DNA of 64,000 nt from Oscillospiraceae bacterium (GTDB lineage Bacteria; Bacillota; Clostridia; Oscillospirales; CAG-272): the NCBI GenBank assembly GCA_015063305.1, contig SVUJ01000010.1:1-64000 (forward strand). The letters run 5' to 3'. Made by a program: the position numbers and the translations under genes. This document shows, piece after piece, positions 57,065-64,000 of this stretch. Below the pieces are notes generated by a model that saw only the letters and a list, made by a program, of their open reading frames with translations, made no database searches and had not been told where the DNA came from. The first letter of the stretch is position 1; each line of letters begins with the position of its first letter.

Positions 57065-58320
57065 GAAAATCTTACTTTGAGGCAGATATACTCTTGCCCG
57101 ATTTCAATAAATACTCCCCCGAAAAATGGGCTGTCGTAGCCTGTGACCAGTTTACCAGCGAGCCCGAATATTGGGAGGGCGCGGAGAAGGTTGTGGGAGA
57201 TGCCCCGTCCACACTCAGAATGATACTTCCCGAGGTCTATCTCTCGCAGAGCGAGGAGAGGATACCCGAAATAAACGCCGAGATGGAAAAGTATACAAGC
57301 GGCGTTCTTGAAAAACACGAGGACGCTATGATATACGTCGAGCGTACTCAGTCGGACGGAAGTGTGCGCCGAGGAGTGGTACTTGCCATAGACCTTGAGT
57401 GTTACGATTACACAAAGGGGGCGGATACGCTCATAAGAGCTACCGAGGCAACTGTTATCGAGCGAATTCCCCCAAGAGTTGCGATAAGAAGGGGAGCCTC
57501 GGTAGAGCTTCCGCACGTTATGCTTCTTATAGATGACCCGAAGAAGACGGTTATCGAGCCTCTGTCAAACACGGTAAATTCCGAGCTGCTGTACGATTTT
57601 GAACTTATGCTCGGCGGTGGGCATATCACGGGAACGCTTATCGGTAAAGAGGATAAGGCAAGGATATCCAAGGCGCTTGATGCCCTTATCACACCCGAGG
57701 CTATGCAGGATAAATACAGCAACTCAGCTCTCGGTGCGCTTTTGTTTGCCGTTGGCGACGGAAATCATTCACTTGCCACCGCAAAGGCTCTTTACGAGGA
57801 GATAAAGGCGGAGATAGGAGAGGACAAGGCGGCAGACCACCCTGCGAGATACGCCCTCGTTGAGATCGTAAATATCCACGACGACGCGCTTAAATTTGAG
57901 CCCATATACAGAATTATGACGGGAGTAGAGCCGATGGCGGTTGTAAACGCTCTTTCGGAGTACGCCTCAAAGCTTTTGGGTGATGGCTCGGCTCAGACTG
58001 TGAACTATATCTTTGGAGATACCAAGGGAAGTATAGTTATCGAAAGACCCGAGCAGCAGTTGGCTGTTGGAACTCTGCAAAACTTCATTGACGAATATAT
58101 ATCACAGCACAAGGGCGCTGAGGTCGATTATATCCACGGTGAGGAGTCGGTCGAGGCTCTTGCCAAAAAGGATAACAGCATAGGCTTTATCTTTGACGGT
58201 ATGGAGAAATCCCAGCTTTTCAAAACGGTTATATTTGACGGCGCGCTCCCTAGAAAGACATTCTCTATGGGACACGCAGTAGATAAGCGCTACTACCTCG
58301 AGTGCAGAAAAATAAAATAA
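57061..58320 (+). CDS. DUF1015 family protein
   Basis: A 419-residue DUF1015 protein, widespread but of unknown function, with kinase-like features proposed for related proteins. Recognisable segments are WAVVACDQFTSEPEYW, YVERTQSDGSVRRGVVLAIDL, LLIDDPKKTVIEP, FAVGDGNHSLATAKALYE and the GEESVEALAKKDNSIGFIF end. Start ATG 57061 overlaps the GDPD stop (ATGA). It closes the operon, followed by a strong terminator. Confidence 0.88.
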   Translation: MRKSYFEADILLPDFNKYSPEKWAVVACDQFTSEPEYWEGAEKVVGDAPSTLRMILPEVYLSQSEERIPEINAEMEKYTSGVLEKHEDAMIYVERTQSDGSVRRGVVLAIDLECYDYTKGADTLIRATEATVIERIPPRVAIRRGASVELPHVMLLIDDPKKTVIEPLSNTVNSELLYDFELMLGGGHITGTLIGKEDKARISKALDALITPEAMQDKYSNSALGALLFAVGDGNHSLATAKALYEEIKAEIGEDKAADHPARYALVEIVNIHDDALKFEPIYRIMTGVEPMAVVNALSEYASKLLGDGSAQTVNYIFGDTKGSIVIERPEQQLAVGTLQNFIDEYISQHKGAEVDYIHGEESVEALAKKDNSIGFIFDGMEKSQLFKTVIFDGALPRKTFSMGHAVDKRYYLECRKIK

Positions 58321-58321
58321 C

Positions 58322-58361
58322 AAAGAGCTCCGAGCGGTTCAAACCGCTCGGAGCTCTTTTA
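58322..58361 (+). terminator. Terminator of the nudix operon
   Basis: AAAGAGCTCCGAGCGGTTT-type 18-bp perfect stem (58322-58339 with 58342-58359) and a T-run. Confidence 0.9.
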
Positions 58362-58395
58362 TCTATTATCTATTATCTTTTATCTTTTATCTTAT
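58360..58395 (+). repeat. Short tandem repeat (TATCTAT/TTTATC units)
   Basis: About five imperfect heptamer units built from TTATCTA and TTTATC lie between the terminator and the aminotransferase stop, reaching its last codons. They may vary in number between strains. Confidence 0.6.
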
Positions 58396-59609
58396 TCCTG
58401 TACGTATCCGTCAAGGAATTCGCCCATTCTTCTCATAGCGTCGCCGAGGATCTCAGGCTGAGGAAGCATTACTATTCTGAAGTGGTCGGGTTCCTTCCAG
58501 TCAAATCCGCTTCCGGGAACCATCAGGATATTGGTTGCGTGCAAAAGATCTCTTGCAAACTTCTTGTCGTTGGTGATGTTGAATTTCTTGATGTCAAGCT
58601 TGGGGAAGAGATAGAATGCCGCGCTGTTCTTAACAAAGGATATTCCATCTATCTTGGAGAGGGCGTTTACAGTAGCCTCTCTCTGCTCGTATATACGTCC
58701 ACCGGGAGATACCATCGACGTGGGAGTTTCCATATCCGCCATAGCTGCGGGGATAACGAGCTGTGCAAGGGCGTTCGCGCAAAGTCTCATAGAGGTGAGC
58801 TTAACGATACCCTGCTTATATTCCGCTGTAAGCTCCTTAGGTCCGCTTATAAGCATCCAACCGCAACGGTATCCGCACAGGCAGTGGGACTTTGAAAGAC
58901 CGTTCATAGTTACGATGGGGAGATCGGGAGCGAGAGCGGCGATAGAGGTATGTACAAGACCGTCCATTACCAAGCGGTCGTATATCTCATCGGAGAAGAT
59001 GAGAATACCAAACTCTCTTGCAAGATCTGCGATCTTGAGGAGGAGCTCATCGGGATAAAGAGCGCCTGTGGGGTTGTTGGGGTTTATCAAAACGATAGCG
59101 CGGGTCTTGGGGGTTATCTTCGAGCGTATATCAGCAACGTCGGGATACCAATTCGAGCTTTCGTCACAGGTATAGAAAACGGGAGTTCCGCCCGCTATAC
59201 GTACAGAGTTGCCCCAAAGCGAATAGCTGGGAGAGGGAACGAGCACCTCGTCACCGGGGTTTATGAGGGGCAGGAGCGCAAAGGAAACGACCTCGCTGAC
59301 ACCGTTACCGATGAAAACGTCATCGGGGTATATATTAACGATACCCTTGCTCTTATGGTACTCACAGATAGCCTCTCTTGCGTCGGGCATACCGCGGAAA
59401 TCGCAGTATCCGACAGCCTTGTTCTCATATCCCTCGATAGCCTTTCTTATGCTCTCGGGAAGACCGAAGCCGAACGCTGCGGGGTTACCTGTGTTGAGCT
59501 TGAGTACGTTTATACCGCGGCTCTGCATCTCCATCGCTTCAACAAAAAGCGGACCTCTGATATCGGAATGGACCTTTTCCATTCTGTCTGCGCAAGTGAT
59601 TATATTCAT
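58392..59609 (-). CDS. Alanine-type aminotransferase, class I/II
   Basis: A 405-residue PLP aminotransferase close to AlaA/YfbQ, which makes alanine from pyruvate with glutamate. It opens with DIRGPLFVEAMEM, has NTGNPAAFGF, PSPSYSLWG, NPNNPTGA (cofactor Asn), SDEIYDRLV and the lysine in NGLSKSHCLCGYRCGW with the carboxylate Arg nearby. The end is PEILGDAMRRMGEFL. Start ATG 59609; its promoter is TTGACT/TACAAT just upstream. Monocistronic. Confidence 0.92.
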   Translation of the reverse strand: MNIITCADRMEKVHSDIRGPLFVEAMEMQSRGINVLKLNTGNPAAFGFGLPESIRKAIEGYENKAVGYCDFRGMPDAREAICEYHKSKGIVNIYPDDVFIGNGVSEVVSFALLPLINPGDEVLVPSPSYSLWGNSVRIAGGTPVFYTCDESSNWYPDVADIRSKITPKTRAIVLINPNNPTGALYPDELLLKIADLAREFGILIFSDEIYDRLVMDGLVHTSIAALAPDLPIVTMNGLSKSHCLCGYRCGWMLISGPKELTAEYKQGIVKLTSMRLCANALAQLVIPAAMADMETPTSMVSPGGRIYEQREATVNALSKIDGISFVKNSAAFYLFPKLDIKKFNITNDKKFARDLLHATNILMVPGSGFDWKEPDHFRIVMLPQPEILGDAMRRMGEFLDGYVQE

Positions 59610-59642
59610 ATAGACACCGTCCTTTAAAAAAATTACTAAATA

Positions 59643-59671
59643 ATTGTAACACAGGCGACAAAAAAAGTCAA
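59643..59671 (-). promoter_or_regulatory. Promoter of the aminotransferase gene
   Basis: On the minus strand TTGACT (59671-59666) and TACAAT (59648-59643), 17-bp spacer. Confidence 0.75.
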
Positions 59672-59766
59672 GAACAACTATAAAATTATAAACACACTAT
59701 ATTGAATATTGGGGTGCTTGCATTTTTGATAAAACAGGGTCAAAATTTTAGTGTATAATTAAAGAA

Positions 59767-59805
59767 AAAAGCAATATCAAACCCGAGAGGGAATGATATT
59801 GCCTT
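59767..59805. terminator. Repeated terminator, copy 1 (end of the regulator gene)
   Basis: GCAATATCA (59771-59779) and TGATATTGC (59794-59802) pair around AACCCGAGAGGGAA. On the minus strand it ends in TTTTTTC, serving the regulator gene. Nearly the same sequence, in the same orientation, lies at 61698-61742. Confidence 0.85.
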
Positions 59806-59808
59806 GTT

Positions 59809-60051
59809 TTATTTTATTTCCTGTTCTAATTTTCTGAATTCCTCTGTATCAAAGAAGTCAATAAGCGAGATTCCAAATCCGTCACAAAGCATTTTTAGCG
59901 TGACTATGCCGGGATTTTGGCTCTTTCCGTAAAGAATATTTTTGATAGATGAAGGGGGAACTGCCGATTCCATAGCTAATCTGTGGATAGACATATTTCT
60001 TTCACCGAGTAATTGTAAAAGCCTGTTTTTTACCGCAGTACAAGTGTCCAT
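59809..60051 (-). CDS. XRE-family HTH transcriptional regulator
   Basis: An 80-residue single-domain Cro/C1-type regulator. The helix-turn-helix lies around MSIHRLAMESAVPPSSIKNILYG (residues about 20-42, helix 2-turn-helix 3), followed by IVTLKMLCDGFGISLIDFF. Start ATG 60051 after AAGGAGG, which fixes it; the open frame continues 49 codons upstream through the divergent promoter and is not coding. It is divergent from a membrane protein gene, and an inverted repeat lies between them, so it probably represses both. Confidence 0.88.
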   Translation of the reverse strand: MDTCTAVKNRLLQLLGERNMSIHRLAMESAVPPSSIKNILYGKSQNPGIVTLKMLCDGFGISLIDFFDTEEFRKLEQEIK

Positions 60052-60081
60052 TTTGTCCTCCTTAAAAATATTTGGTCTAAT

Positions 60082-60114
60082 TATAGCCCATTTCTCTTGA
60101 CAAAGTGGGCTATA
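60082..60114. promoter_or_regulatory. Probable operator of the XRE regulator
   Basis: TATAGCCCA (60082-60090) and TGGGCTATA (60106-60114) form a 9-bp perfect inverted repeat 15 bases apart, enclosing the -35 box. A further half-like TATAGGCTA lies at 60125-60133. Confidence 0.7.
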
Positions 60115-60125
60115 TATGATACAAT
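60097..60125 (+). promoter_or_regulatory. Promoter of the membrane protein gene at 60161
   Basis: TTGACA 60097-60102 and TACAAT 60120-60125, 17-bp spacer. The inverted repeat overlaps it. A minus-strand TATAAT (60085-60080) could serve the regulator gene. Confidence 0.82.
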
Positions 60126-60160
60126 ATAGGCTACAAATAGACTGTCCAAAGGAGTAAGTT

Positions 60161-61219
60161 ATGAAACAAAAAAACAAATTTTCAACTATTTTATACATAT
60201 TCTTGCTTACGGTCGTGCCGCAGGCAGTAGTGCTTTGTGTAGTCGCGAGCGTCGGCTGCTGGGCATATTGGTGGTATAAAACTCAGAATTGGCTTCAGAT
60301 GATGTTGAGCCTTGTTGGCTTTATCACTATGATATTCTTTTTTATATGTGTATCCGTTTTTGTTCATTCCTACGGATTGTCGGTGTTTTCAAGCACGACA
60401 AAAGATCTGAACGCAAGCGATTACGAAGGAAAGCCCGTGAAAGAATATTCACTCCGCGTTGGAAGAAGAAACACGTTGACGGGAAAAACACCCATCTACG
60501 TAAAGGAGCGGGAGAGACGCCGCAACGGTTTACTTGTGATGGTGGGATTTCATGCCATCATTGTTGGTTTGACGGGTGTGTTCAAATTTGTCATTGAGTC
60601 ATTGCGCGTTTCTTTTTCTCGGAGAAGACAGGCGGATTGGGAGACTTGTCGGGAGGATATACAGGACAAGATACTTGGAGAGGGTGTTTTTGGTTTTTTC
60701 AAAATGCCGATCATTTGTACAATGATCTTTTGTATTCTGTGGGCTACGCTCGGTGGACTTACTTGGGGCTTTGAATCAAAGTATTCTCACGAGAACATCG
60801 ACATTGAGATAACAGAGATTTCGCAGGGTGAGCTGAACGGTATGCGAGCTTCGGTATCACTCAAAGCAAAGGTTACGAACAACTCGAAGGAAAAGATAGA
60901 TTATGCTAAGGGCACACTGTACATAAAGGATGCCAAAGGAGATCTTCTCTTCCAGTGTAAGCTCACAATACAGTTGCCATTTAATCACCCAAACGGTGAG
61001 TTTATGGAGAAGTCGCAAACCTATGAGCTTTCTTGGAATCTCAACGGAGATCCAAACAATGAAGGAATGATGACTTTATATAATTCGGAACTTGAGGATC
61101 TGGAAATAAGCTTTGCGTTCCAAGAAATAAAATACGGTGAAAAGACCTTGCTGAGCGATCCCAAAGTCGTTGATCTTTTGGGAAGCGATCCGATAGTGAT
61201 AAAAGAATCCGAAAAATAA
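60161..61219 (+). CDS. Membrane protein with C-terminal Ig-like/LEA-like domain, unknown
   Basis: A 352-residue protein. Four hydrophobic segments (about residues 10-35, 45-72, 120-145 and 178-200), with a basic cytoplasmic stretch between 2 and 3 (RRNTLTGKT, KERERRR) and another (SFSRRRQ). The last 150 residues are a beta-rich domain opening IDIEITEISQGELNGMRASVSLKAKVTNNSKEKIDYA, like domains with LEA14/FxLYD character that lie outside the membrane. I do not recognise a family function. SD AAAGGAG at 60149-60155 and promoter under the XRE operator. Confidence 0.65.
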   Translation: MKQKNKFSTILYIFLLTVVPQAVVLCVVASVGCWAYWWYKTQNWLQMMLSLVGFITMIFFFICVSVFVHSYGLSVFSSTTKDLNASDYEGKPVKEYSLRVGRRNTLTGKTPIYVKERERRRNGLLVMVGFHAIIVGLTGVFKFVIESLRVSFSRRRQADWETCREDIQDKILGEGVFGFFKMPIICTMIFCILWATLGGLTWGFESKYSHENIDIEITEISQGELNGMRASVSLKAKVTNNSKEKIDYAKGTLYIKDAKGDLLFQCKLTIQLPFNHPNGEFMEKSQTYELSWNLNGDPNNEGMMTLYNSELEDLEISFAFQEIKYGEKTLLSDPKVVDLLGSDPIVIKESEK

Positions 61220-61260
61220 CAAGACCCTAAAAAATTCATATAGATAAAAAGGAGACTAAA

Positions 61261-61695
61261 ATGGGAATTAAAGACTTTTTTAAGAAATTGAAAGAAGACA
61301 ATCAAGGATTTTTGTCAACCATGTCACGAATGAACGGCGCGGGACTTCTTGGTGAAGTAAACCACGGAATAAAGGACGGTGATTTTTGGGACGGCGCTTA
61401 CGTGAACATAGAAAAAGACAAAAACGATGGAAAGGAAAAGGGCGTTATCTACGGTTCAGCTCAAAAGGATTATTGGTTTACCAAAGAGGACGTTACCGAC
61501 ATCTCTTTGGTAGAAAAAGAAAAGCTTTACGATGAGCCCGTTATTAATCAAGGTCAAAGTAAGGTTGCAGCTTTCCGTTATCGCATAACCTTTGCAGACG
61601 GAAAGAAGGCTCAGTTCGATATTCTGATGACAAAATTAGAGCGTTTTTCCGATTTCTTTGGCGCGGAGCTTCCTGACATGAGCAAGTATCAGTAA
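61261..61695 (+). CDS. Hypothetical soluble protein
   Basis: A 144-residue protein of unknown family. It opens GIKDFFKKLKEDNQGF (amphipathic, could touch membrane), has a middle DFWDGAYVNIEKD and a conserved-looking IYGSAQKDYWFTKEDV segment, and ends FRYRITFADGKKAQFDILMTKLERF, a beta-hairpin pattern. Start ATG 61261 after AAGGAGAC, 41 bases after the membrane protein, so the two form one transcript under the XRE operator. Confidence 0.6.
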   Translation: MGIKDFFKKLKEDNQGFLSTMSRMNGAGLLGEVNHGIKDGDFWDGAYVNIEKDKNDGKEKGVIYGSAQKDYWFTKEDVTDISLVEKEKLYDEPVINQGQSKVAAFRYRITFADGKKAQFDILMTKLERFSDFFGAELPDMSKYQ

Positions 61696-61697
61696 AC

Positions 61698-61742
61698 AAA
61701 AAGGCAATGTCAAACCCAAGAGGGAATGATATTGCCTTTTTT
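61698..61742 (+). terminator. Repeated terminator, copy 2
   Basis: GGCAATGTC and GATATTGCC pair around AAACCCAAGAGGGAAT, flanked by A5 and T6. It is a close copy of 59767-59805 in the same orientation, ending the membrane-protein operon. Confidence 0.88.
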
Positions 61743-61768
61743 ACGGATTATTTACAAATTGCGTTCAG

Positions 61769-61797
61769 TTGACATATACTCAAAATTTTGATATAAT
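61769..61797 (+). promoter_or_regulatory. Sigma-A promoter
   Basis: TTGACA 61769-61774 and TATAAT 61792-61797, 17-bp spacer. Confidence 0.85.
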
Positions 61798-61858
61798 ATA
61801 GTGACTATCAAAGGTAATTAAGAAGTTTATAGATAATAATTGACAAAAGGGATTTCAG

Positions 61859-62467
61859 ATGAAGGAATTAAAAGAAAAAGCACAAGCCTTAATTGATAAA
61901 TATACTCCCGAGCTTTCGAGTAAAGGCTTAAAAATATTGCTTTCCAAGCGATATTTTGAGTCGGAGGTTGGAGAGAGATCGGGAGGACATGGTGTCTGCG
62001 CAATAATCTTTAATTCAATAGATCGTGCGCGAGATCATAAAGAAGAAAAGAAAAAAGGATATAACTACGAAAAAAACAAATATCATTATTTTATTCTTAC
62101 GCTATGTCCGACTGAAAAAAATGCTTTTAGGCGGGAGGAATGCCGAGAATATGCTTTTATTCTGAAAAAGGTAGAGAGGGCGCATGTTGGACAAGAGCCA
62201 CGCAGAGTTCTTTATCGCGAAGAAAAGATTTTATCAAAAATTGAGAAACAGATACTAAAAATCTTGAAGAAGGCAGAAAAAAGTTCGGCTCAAAAGGTGT
62301 GTCAAAATAATATCATCGATGCTTTCCGATATGCAATGACTGCAAAGTATGAATATAAAGAAAGATTTTTAGGGAAAGAGAGTTTTTCATGGGAAATGAT
62401 ATTTATTTCTGCTTTTTGTGTTTTGGTTTTCGGAAGTATGTTTATAATATGGCTTTTTACAAAATAA
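61859..62467 (+). CDS. Tail-anchored hypothetical protein
   Basis: A 202-residue, Lys/Glu-rich protein with one hydrophobic segment at the C-terminus (about residues 181-198, FISAFCVLVFGSMFIIWLF), so probably cytoplasmic and anchored by its tail. A GHGVCAIIFNS stretch and a RRVLYREEKIL segment may be core strands. No family recognised. Start ATG 61859; the upstream GGGATTTCAG is a poor ribosome binding site, but the promoter is good. Confidence 0.6.
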   Translation: MKELKEKAQALIDKYTPELSSKGLKILLSKRYFESEVGERSGGHGVCAIIFNSIDRARDHKEEKKKGYNYEKNKYHYFILTLCPTEKNAFRREECREYAFILKKVERAHVGQEPRRVLYREEKILSKIEKQILKILKKAEKSSAQKVCQNNIIDAFRYAMTAKYEYKERFLGKESFSWEMIFISAFCVLVFGSMFIIWLFTK

Positions 62468-62567
62468 TTCACACCAATAGACAAACTTTTATTGGGATAT
62501 AGATTACGGAAGATGCTCCGATTGTGCAAAACGGATGAACAGGTAACTCCAAGGAGGTAGAACGATA

Positions 62568-63431
62568 ATGCTCATACAAAAGCAAGATTGCAAAATGGAT
62601 GTTGACGTGGATAAAACAATAGAATATTATCGTGAACACGCTCTTTGCGATTGTCCCGCTTGCCGTAATTTTTATGTACAAGCGGAAACAGCTTTGCTGA
62701 AGCTCAAGGAGTTCTTTTCTGAACTTGGCGTAGATATTTCACGACCCGATGAAACAAGCTGGGATGTGGTGGACGGTATAGCTGACTATTTCTTTGTCGC
62801 TTATACCGTAAGCGGCAAGGTGTTGGAATACGATAAATACGAGATCGATCTGCAAGACGGCGATTTGTTTTTAAATGTCGTTATCGATGATCATTACATT
62901 CCCAACGAGCAGAAGAATGAATATTTCGTTATCTCTGTTTACGGAATTAATCTGCCGTGGGTTTTAGATGAACCGCTTCCTGATGCAAAGCCATTTATGA
63001 AAACTGTTACAGAAGTAAAAAACAGTTTTTGGAGCAAACTCACAAAAATACTTTTCAAGAAAGCAGAAAAATCCAATAATATTCATCAACCTATACCATC
63101 TTGGGAAAATATTGTTGAATGGCTATATGATAAGGATTTAGACGCGTTCAGAGATGAGGTGACACGGGTAATATATTCAAAAGACAAATCTATGCGATAT
63201 GTGATATTAAAAGATGATAAGGGGTATTTTACATATCAGCTTGAAGTAATATATCAATTTAACGAAGAAGAGTGGCAATACATTTGTAAAGACGATACTA
63301 CTTTACCCGCAATGTGGGAAACCTATAGAGGCGCTGGGGGTAAATCGATTTTTAATAGTGAAAGAGAGTTGTTAAAAAGTCTTGCGTTTGAGCCTGAATA
63401 CAAGAAGTATTTTTCGGGCGATGAAATATAG
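62568..63431 (+). CDS. Hypothetical two-domain protein with CDCPACR motif
   Basis: A 287-residue soluble protein. The first part (about 1-145) carries HALCDCPACRNFY then LGVDISRPDET, similar in style to a family of small clostridial proteins with CDCPYCRN motifs that I remember as possible immunity proteins. The second part (about 165-287), joined by a Lys-rich linker, reads VTRVIYSKDKSMRYVILKDDKGYFTYQLEVIYQF, LPAMWETY and a KSLAFEPEYKKYF end, a separate module found alone elsewhere. Start ATG 62568 after AAGGAGG. No toxin gene is seen beside it. Confidence 0.6.
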   Translation: MLIQKQDCKMDVDVDKTIEYYREHALCDCPACRNFYVQAETALLKLKEFFSELGVDISRPDETSWDVVDGIADYFFVAYTVSGKVLEYDKYEIDLQDGDLFLNVVIDDHYIPNEQKNEYFVISVYGINLPWVLDEPLPDAKPFMKTVTEVKNSFWSKLTKILFKKAEKSNNIHQPIPSWENIVEWLYDKDLDAFRDEVTRVIYSKDKSMRYVILKDDKGYFTYQLEVIYQFNEEEWQYICKDDTTLPAMWETYRGAGGKSIFNSERELLKSLAFEPEYKKYFSGDEI

Positions 63432-63472
63432 ACAGCCTTTTAGACTAAAATCAAATACTTTTCGGACAAAAG

Positions 63473-63532
63473 ACTGTTGTCCCTTACCTGACACACTTGT
63501 GGTGAATGTTCTGTAAGGGACAACGGTTTTTT
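63473..63532 (+). terminator. Terminator
   Basis: GTTGTCCCTTAC (in 63473-63487) pairs with GTAAGGGACAAC (in 63513-63527) over a 25-base loop, then T6. Confidence 0.78.
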
Positions 63533-63799
63533 ATTGAATTTTACATTTTGCCAGTAGGGGCGAACTGTGTTCGCCCGCGGGCGTTCAAAGAACGCCCCCT
63601 ACGGGTTTGATAAATCATTTCTTGTAGGGCGGGAGTAAACTGTCAAGAGTAACATTGTAAACCCCCGCCCTACGATTTGCGACGCCGGATTGCATATCCG
63701 CCCGTGTCATCCTTGAGCAAGTCGCCCCACGGGATTCTTCGCTTGCGCTCAAGAATGACTGTCGTGTGGCGATGCCGCGAAGGATCTCGGGCGGCGCGG
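63533..63799. repeat. Intergenic dispersed repeats
   Basis: No gene seen. Inverted pieces: GGGGCGAAC/GTTCGCCC near 63556-63577, GGGCGTTC/GAACGCCCC near 63580-63600, TGTAGGGCGGG/CCCGCCCTAC near 63630-63673. The composition is GC-rich compared with the genes to its left and resembles the intergenic repeats near 53.2 kb. Confidence 0.55.
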
Positions 63800-64000
63800 T
63801 CAGGACGCCAGATCCCCCATTTGATTTAGCATATTCTCAATGAATATTCCGTACCCCGTGGTGGGGTCGTTGATCAGCACGTGGGTCACAGCGCCCACTA
63901 TCTTACCGTCTTGGATTATCGGCGAGCCCGACATTCCTTGTATTATTCCGCCCGTTTTGTTTATCAGATCGGGGTCGGTTATCTTTACCGTGAAGCACTT
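63800..64000 (-). CDS. spoIVB: Stage IV sporulation protein B, C-terminal part (cut by window edge)
   Basis: The last 66 residues of an S55-family serine protease. [14 protein letters not shown] contains the catalytic Ser, and the run [21 protein letters not shown] is characteristic of SpoIVB, which is secreted from the forespore to trigger pro-sigma-K processing. The reading frame runs from the edge to TGA (63802-63800). It is the clearest sign that the organism carries sporulation genes. Confidence 0.93.

Follow-up and report, generated by a model that had tools for sequence, protein, structure and literature searches.

A probable exchangeable, self-repressed envelope cassette in an accessory hotspot linked to spoIVB in an Oscillospiraceae bacterium

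The minimal mobile elements of Neisseria are exchangeable sets of genes at a fixed core-gene location, which have no integrase of their own and are presumed to move by recombination in the shared flanks. The locus described here resembles them, as far as the outline of their description goes, in its exchangeable sets at a core-gene site and in the presumed recombination in the flanks, but its gene set carries a repressor of its own, many sets stand under one operator head, and hairpins or repeats of a gene 3' end lie between the cassettes of tandem arrays. In integrons, arrays are built of small cassettes in one orientation with imperfect palindromes as their bounds, and small cassettes bounded in this way and turned in the same direction are found here as well, although the hairpins in our case look like terminators. 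The dusA islands sit at a core-gene end and carry an integrase (PMC4482086). Compared with the part of that account that concerns the integration site, a core-gene end would be the target here too, since extra copies of the spoIVB 3' end exist, together with conserved end sequences, but the target gene is another one and no integrase was recognised among the few spoIVB-cassette proteins scanned. With regard to function, the envelope-stress operon pspA-ydjGHI of Bacillus subtilis contains an SPFH protein, YdjI, that needs two membrane partners (PMC8581546). As that operon is portrayed in the passages on its make-up, the likeness is that two sister cassettes carry an SPFH/zinc-ribbon operon as their payload; the payload of our own locus differs in having no match to an SPFH or PspA domain in Pfam, and in standing behind an XRE head and not a sigma-W promoter. 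We consider it probable that the locus is an exchangeable, self-repressed envelope cassette in an accessory hotspot linked to spoIVB.

The window, by which we mean the whole analysed stretch of 64,000 nucleotides (contig SVUJ01000010.1), belongs to a genome of 1.58 Mb in 22 contigs that is 94.6% complete. Going from a class I/II aminotransferase gene (58392..59609, minus strand) to the 3' end of spoIVB (63800..64000, minus strand, cut by the window edge), there is a hairpin, an XRE gene on the minus strand, a membrane-protein gene and a small-protein gene on the plus strand, a second hairpin and two further ORFs. The XRE repressor (59809..60051) has 80 aa, and its HTH_26 domain (PF13443) scores 35.7 bits against a Pfam cut-off of 22; relatives of it were found. 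A shared operator-promoter (60078..60142) with TATAGCCCA, TTGACA and TGGGCTATATATGATACAAT, plus a further partial half-site, separates it from the gene for a membrane protein of 352 aa (60161..61219) with, by our count, about four transmembrane helices and a predicted C-terminal Ig-like domain. The soluble protein that follows (61261..61695, 144 aa) has an N-terminal helix and a predicted PH-like domain. The first-pass annotation had thus correctly placed an XRE regulator, a divergent membrane protein and a small soluble protein between two hairpins. The two ORFs outside the hairpins, of 202 aa (61859..62467, plus strand) and 287 aa (62568..63431, plus strand), are of unknown function, and we count their position between the module and spoIVB against the cassette reading. 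Before spoIVB there is also a 49-bp palindrome (63476..63524), of a kind that in the arrays of congeners comes behind spoIVB or behind 3' copies of it; related sequences follow spoIVB or a spoIVB tail in at least seven contigs. No recombinase was matched among the five window proteins scanned with Pfam, NCBIfam, PHROGs and PADLOC, and an Rfam scan of positions 58300-64000 gave nothing at E up to 0.1.

The 9-bp inverted repeat that had been described as operator-like and lying over the promoter is real, with half-sites TATAGCCCA at 60082-60090 and TGGGCTATA at 60106-60114. The motifs TTGACA (60097-60102) and TACAAT (60120-60125), which we read as putative -35 and -10 boxes, lie amid or near it. 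A search with the XRE protein in 395 genomes of the family gave a match at E up to 1e-14 in 142 of them, and 50 matches in 49 genomes, at E 5.5e-37 or better (the next one has 7e-32), are here called close heads. We compared 60 loci, some of them near-duplicates, namely 48 close heads, four weaker ones, L006-L008, L074, L119, L154, L155 and the window. Of the 59 loci long enough for the test (one was too short), 48 have the operator core TGGGCTATATATGATACAAT, matching at 16 or more of its 20 positions, no farther than 160 bp from the XRE start. Nowhere else in the same loci is it found (0/59), and it appears in 2/59 shuffled promoters when the best of 20 shuffles is taken for each. The window has all 20 bases and so combines the XRE gene and the core that define the XRE-head family. 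For 47 of the 59 other loci, the DNA that resembles the window opens close to the XRE stop or inside the XRE gene, and its far edge lies +74 to +121 from the XRE start. In the window itself the payload starts at +110. The other 12 loci show a similarity that stops sooner, or none. The only further DNA matches to the window are the hairpins (L158 and L163) and the start of the small-protein gene (L006-L008). Because the similarity stops near the start of the payload, the conserved unit is the head, about 330 bp with the 80-aa XRE gene and the operator-promoter. The idea of a three-protein module holds in so far as the trio recurs elsewhere, but it is the XRE gene with its operator, not the three proteins, that is conserved as a unit. 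A head of this kind, with back-to-back promoters overlapped by GGGCTATA half-sites, would constitute a self-repressing switch, in which the XRE protein sitting on the operator would hold down both its own promoter and that of the payload.

Contig C11 of G019 repeats the region of the G019 module at 99.98% identity and was rejected as a second copy of that module. It is one of the 50 close heads and was kept among these and in the counts over 59 loci, but we took it out of the tree and out of the statistics on hairpins, direct repeats and payloads. The XRE tree (57 rows and 80 columns, with L156, L155 and L201 left out) is poorly resolved. The spoIVB label is clustered on it, with 6 changes against a mean of 10.2 after shuffling (0/500), and the head of the window groups, with low support, with other spoIVB-site heads that bear unrelated payloads. 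A single XRE clade for all carriers of the membrane and small proteins was not rejected (AU p 0.175 and 0.14), and exchange of this payload between heads is therefore not proven; a clade of LRR payloads was rejected (p 0.002), for a group defined by a loose single-linkage cluster. XRE heads were also seen on two viral contigs, one of them with a lipoprotein-like payload, a large serine recombinase about 1 kb off and a DNA methylase, and the other with an internal stop in the XRE frame.

What stands behind the head is varied. The payload operons, with neighbouring genes partly included, contain 99 proteins that fall into 71 clusters at E 1e-5, and the kinds of payload comprise the membrane/PH-like pair, an SPFH operon, BspA-LRR lipoproteins and zinc-ribbon proteins. 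Among the best 25 of the 44 Pfam families matched by 54 scanned payload proteins were LRR_5, Flg_new and zinc ribbons (at least four each), collagen (at least three), and SPFH and bacterial Ig (at least one each). SLOG families were matched too, in an XRE branch that is further removed and whose promoter has diverged. In 27 of 38 cases the product of the first payload gene looks membrane- or lipobox-bearing; among the remaining ORFs of these loci the figure is 73 of 163 (p 0.004), a modest enrichment obtained with crude rules for hydropathy and lipobox. A role in envelope stress or defence had been proposed for the module; the envelope part fits these payloads moderately, whereas we can only infer the stress or defence.

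The two proteins of the window payload have no significant family in Pfam, NCBIfam, PHROGs or PADLOC, where no payload match is better than E 0.38 and the XRE protein only reaches capH at E 0.0011, and neither has a sequence relative in the PDB at E below 0.03. Viral contigs likewise gave no relative of the small protein. The model of the membrane protein has a mean pLDDT of 59 over its whole length and a weak whole-model fold similarity, the best Foldseek match being a Kir channel at E 5e-4 with a TM of 0.2. Its predicted C-terminus agrees with the Ig-like domain of the first description, with 5ek5 as the best match (Z 8.2, rmsd 3.4 over 111 residues). PH-like chains dominate the fold matches of the small protein (model pLDDT 79), at no Foldseek E below 0.001; the best Z is 6.9, with an rmsd of 2.8-3.1 A over 80-81 residues. 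The co-occurrence that was to be checked is there: the same 4 of 394 genomes of the order contain full-length relatives of the two proteins. The pair is also found in L170, and in L166 the small protein stands alone behind the head. Weak partial matches to the membrane protein, at E 1e-6 to 1e-3, were seen in four other genomes and once more in that of the window. From the predicted folds, the payload statistics and the SPFH payload of a sister cassette we think that the membrane and PH-like proteins most likely are a two-part envelope device that is made when repression is lifted. The membrane protein would turn its Ig-like domain outward with the PH-like protein as a cytosolic partner, an inducing signal would release the repressor, and the device may then protect the envelope against phage or membrane damage.

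The anchor of the hotspot is spoIVB, which was identified by TIGR02860 above cut-off for two congener proteins and by Peptidase_S55 for the fragment in the window, and was detected in 26 of 30 genomes of the genus, including that of the window. More than one match was found in 10 of the 26, the additional ones being copies of the last codons, and where these are on one contig they are spaced by about 1 to 7 kb with cargo between. All 12 extra ends with upstream sequence (two at a contig edge and a short copy in G008 are left out of this comparison) start at the GMSGSP codons or at most one base from them, and all 12 directly follow an end of the type GTTGTCCCT-TTGACCACACTC, of which the TTGACCACACTC part is exact in eight and has one change in four. 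There is a thirteenth extra end of this type in G016. Judged by these junctions, the arrays look like the result of site-specific insertion of small elements with the gene end restored. In addition to the XRE modules, spoIVB contigs carry Phd-Doc genes (in six congeners; Fic/DOC above cut-off and Phd just below), a reverse transcriptase that is closest to the St85 retron model, below the cut-off of that model, a BspA-type LRR protein and an AraC regulator. The accessory hotspot linked to spoIVB has Phd-Doc, retron-type reverse transcriptase and metabolic cassettes as well. A glycyl-radical enzyme was observed on the hairpin-bearing contig C64 of G006, which has no spoIVB match.

Eleven of the 50 close heads have spoIVB or its tail inside the fetched flanks, where we would expect 0.25 by our own estimate, taking about 10 kb per 2 Mb; among the eleven is L201, whose XRE frame is broken and which lacks the operator. 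Two other congeners, G019 and G008, have modules at spoIVB with an XRE identity of 85% and other payloads, which are, in G008, the SPFH/zinc-ribbon operon and, in G019, a protein of 193 aa for which a membrane segment is predicted. The G019 module lies between two hairpins that share 97% identity over 35 nt. Among the matches listed in the open-access literature we found no paper on spoIVB as an integration site, and none in that literature on an XRE gene with variable cargo, both of which are weak absences. On islands that target terminators and on group IIC introns, the same literature offered background only.

The hairpins of the window are, as first noted, near-identical and in the same orientation, and they sit within a direct repeat of 57 nt (59753..59809 and 61686..61742) with 88% identity. 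The XRE gene on the minus strand is probably terminated by the left copy, and the operon by the right one, which has a run of T. Both fold as terminator-like stems; against shuffles the right copy has z -6.4, and the left copy -5.4 on one strand and -8.4 on the other. With up to three mismatches the window has two copies against none in 100 shuffles, the whole 1.58-Mb genome has only these two, and the 29 other congeners searched have no pattern of such close similarity. A looser form, GGCAATATC-N(4-30)-GATATTGCC, which the hairpins of the window fall outside by a stem mismatch in each, was found in 39 places in 18 of 30 congeners, against 0 for the reversed control. Thirty of these places are on contigs bearing spoIVB or a 3' fragment of it; of the other nine, two are within 100 bp of contig ends (G003), one is on the near-identical duplicate contig of G019, three are on C64 of G006, which carries the end motif, and three are in G001, G008 and G022, with no spoIVB match in G003 and G022. 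A frequent subtype, GGCAATATCATTCC...GGTTTGATATTGCC, has unpaired TT/TT inside the stem and 17 exact copies in 11 of 30 genomes, and on spoIVB contigs it has, in our reading, one orientation relative to spoIVB except in G027. The loops are more alike within genomes than between them (mean distance 0.320 vs 0.441, 0/5000 label shuffles) in a set of 41 hairpins, made up of 38 of the 39 without the G019 duplicate contig, one near-match and the two window copies. A common genome-wide terminator in a fixed core context, which the first-pass annotation had named as the finding that would speak against a module, was rejected as an explanation and is contradicted by the two copies in the genome and the spoIVB-linked family.

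The module is patchily distributed among relatives. In G010, spoIVB and the same aminotransferase gene are direct neighbours with one hairpin between them and no module, and the repeat thus occurs alone where the module is absent, although this is one genome, 66% complete, with a loop unlike that of the window, and no more than 2 of 30 congeners have the aminotransferase at E up to 1e-60. As the loop differs, an insertion into that very hairpin is only a possibility. In another family the trio stands after a radical-SAM gene (L006-L008), with unlike terminators at its two ends, and is followed in L006 and L007 by a tRNA-Ser on the opposite strand. The portable and stand-alone character that was first suspected agrees with the absence in G010 and the presence of the trio between other genes in another family. 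The module is also missing in G547, where a radical-SAM protein of 89% identity is directly followed by tRNA-Ser; we have withdrawn this as a clean empty site, since the tRNA-Ser is inverted relative to L006 and L007 and a contig end is close by. Elsewhere the trio has different terminators, which are also unlike one another, and other modules have duplicated hairpins of their own. The hairpin is a feature of the locus and not of the module, contrary to what had been assumed.

Around other modules, a strong flanking direct repeat (E below 1e-6) is present in 9 of 51 testable ones, against 1 of 408 mismatched pairs, and that single match is between two spoIVB-site loci. The repeat is a terminator-like hairpin in the window and in L074, L174, L190 and L200, a piece of the spoIVB end in L157, L119 and L178, and a longer sequence in L181; L198 has a hairpin repeat too, with a right flank too short for the test. 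Outside the spoIVB hotspot the hairpin differs in sequence at each locus. Cassettes could enter, leave and be exchanged by recombination beside terminator hairpins or gene ends, which would leave a direct repeat at both cassette ends. The locus-specific repeats would fit either a local duplication of the hairpin or gene end at insertion, or the integration of circles sharing it; draft assemblies may misjoin repeats.

The same hairpins could instead be plain terminators whose likeness is maintained by selection or gene conversion, with the module as an old chromosomal regulator whose neighbour gene is turned over by regulatory capture and which has no dedicated route of mobility. In favour of this account, the hairpins are well suited to end transcription of the XRE gene and the operon, and the trio with unlike end terminators in another family and the 42 of 51 testable modules that lack a strong flanking repeat agree with it. 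Termination, however, needs no near-identical loops, the flanking repeats are far above the mismatched-pair control, and the patchy presence and the congener site without the module are also difficult to reconcile with it, so we regard it as rather improbable. Unlikely, and less credible than capture, is that the module is a moron borne by a phage or an IME, with an XRE protein like a prophage repressor and a payload that excludes other phages. The two viral contigs with XRE heads, one with the large serine recombinase and DNA methylase on the same stretch, and the retron-type reverse transcriptase and Phd-Doc in the hotspot point in that direction, but the membrane and small proteins have no convincing match to a phage family, the membrane protein has no relative in plasmid or phage records or viral contigs, and bacterial genomes contain most of the heads found. 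A small XRE gene beside an unknown membrane protein, in a hotspot with Phd-Doc genes, might also suggest a toxin-antitoxin pair, in which XRE would be the antitoxin and the membrane protein the toxin. This is very improbable, as this XRE family is paired with many unrelated payloads behind one operator, unlike a fixed cognate pair.

The exchangeable, self-repressed envelope cassette is thus the reading that we prefer. It is possible, and we propose it only tentatively, that such loci form a class of non-autonomous cassettes, unnamed so far, in which a transferable repressor-operator head of about 330 bp can stand before almost any envelope gene, gain and loss go through recombination at terminator hairpins, and one switch governs a strain-variable surface repertoire that is partly stored beside spoIVB. 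We found no earlier description in the open-access literature of a head with exchangeable, often envelope-type payloads, many of them in a spoIVB hotspot. If the reading is true, one conserved switch would be a handle on dozens of unrelated genes for surface and membrane proteins in these Clostridia that are for the most part uncharacterised, and whatever lifts the XRE repressor would reveal their shared trigger. The 3' end of spoIVB would be a hotspot for defence-type reverse transcriptase, toxin-antitoxin pairs and metabolic cassettes, and terminators would offer themselves as exchange points for cassettes without an integrase.

The 3' end of spoIVB, the sporulation protease gene that anchors the accessory hotspot, is duplicated in the congener loci L061-L069, with a conserved end motif directly before the duplicated ends, and small elements have apparently been inserted there at the Met-Ser-Gly codons of the gene (for example at L061:2690-2844 and L064:5981-6135). 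A 49-bp palindrome in the window (63476-63524) is a possible candidate for the other end of these elements. Just after spoIVB in the window there is also a palindromic repeat of the GGGGCGAACTGTGTTCGCCCGCGG type (63557-63598), and repeats of this type are found beside spoIVB in congeners as well.

The cargo at spoIVB includes toxin-antitoxin and retron-type genes. A Phd-Doc toxin-antitoxin cassette (L061:2983-3599) recurs in five further congeners, and is found on the spoIVB contigs of six in all, the Doc proteins of the others being 84-96% identical to that of L061. At L062 a retron-type reverse transcriptase (L062:3053-3976) lies between spoIVB and a Phd-Doc pair, and scores 202.6 bits against the NCBIfam St85 model, under the cut-off of 235. 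Two ORFs separate the module from spoIVB in the window (61859-63431); a family search with both gave no significant match, and both are missing from the module-free site of congener G010.

We read an operon at about G007:C24:29500-33100 (the L064/L109 region) as resembling the SPFH operon of congener G008, but with a different small regulator beside it. Behind more distant XRE heads (L196, L198, L200, L202, L204, L205 and L206) the payloads are SLOG-type (YAcAr/YpsA) proteins; the promoter has diverged, and hairpin repeats flank both ends of the modules at L198 and L200. In another XRE head, on a viral contig (L023:5001-5240), a stop codon interrupts the reading frame; from the sequence we read this contig as also coding for a SIR2-like protein, and another protein of this contig is taken to be the uracil-DNA-glycosylase family match found in the payload-protein scan.
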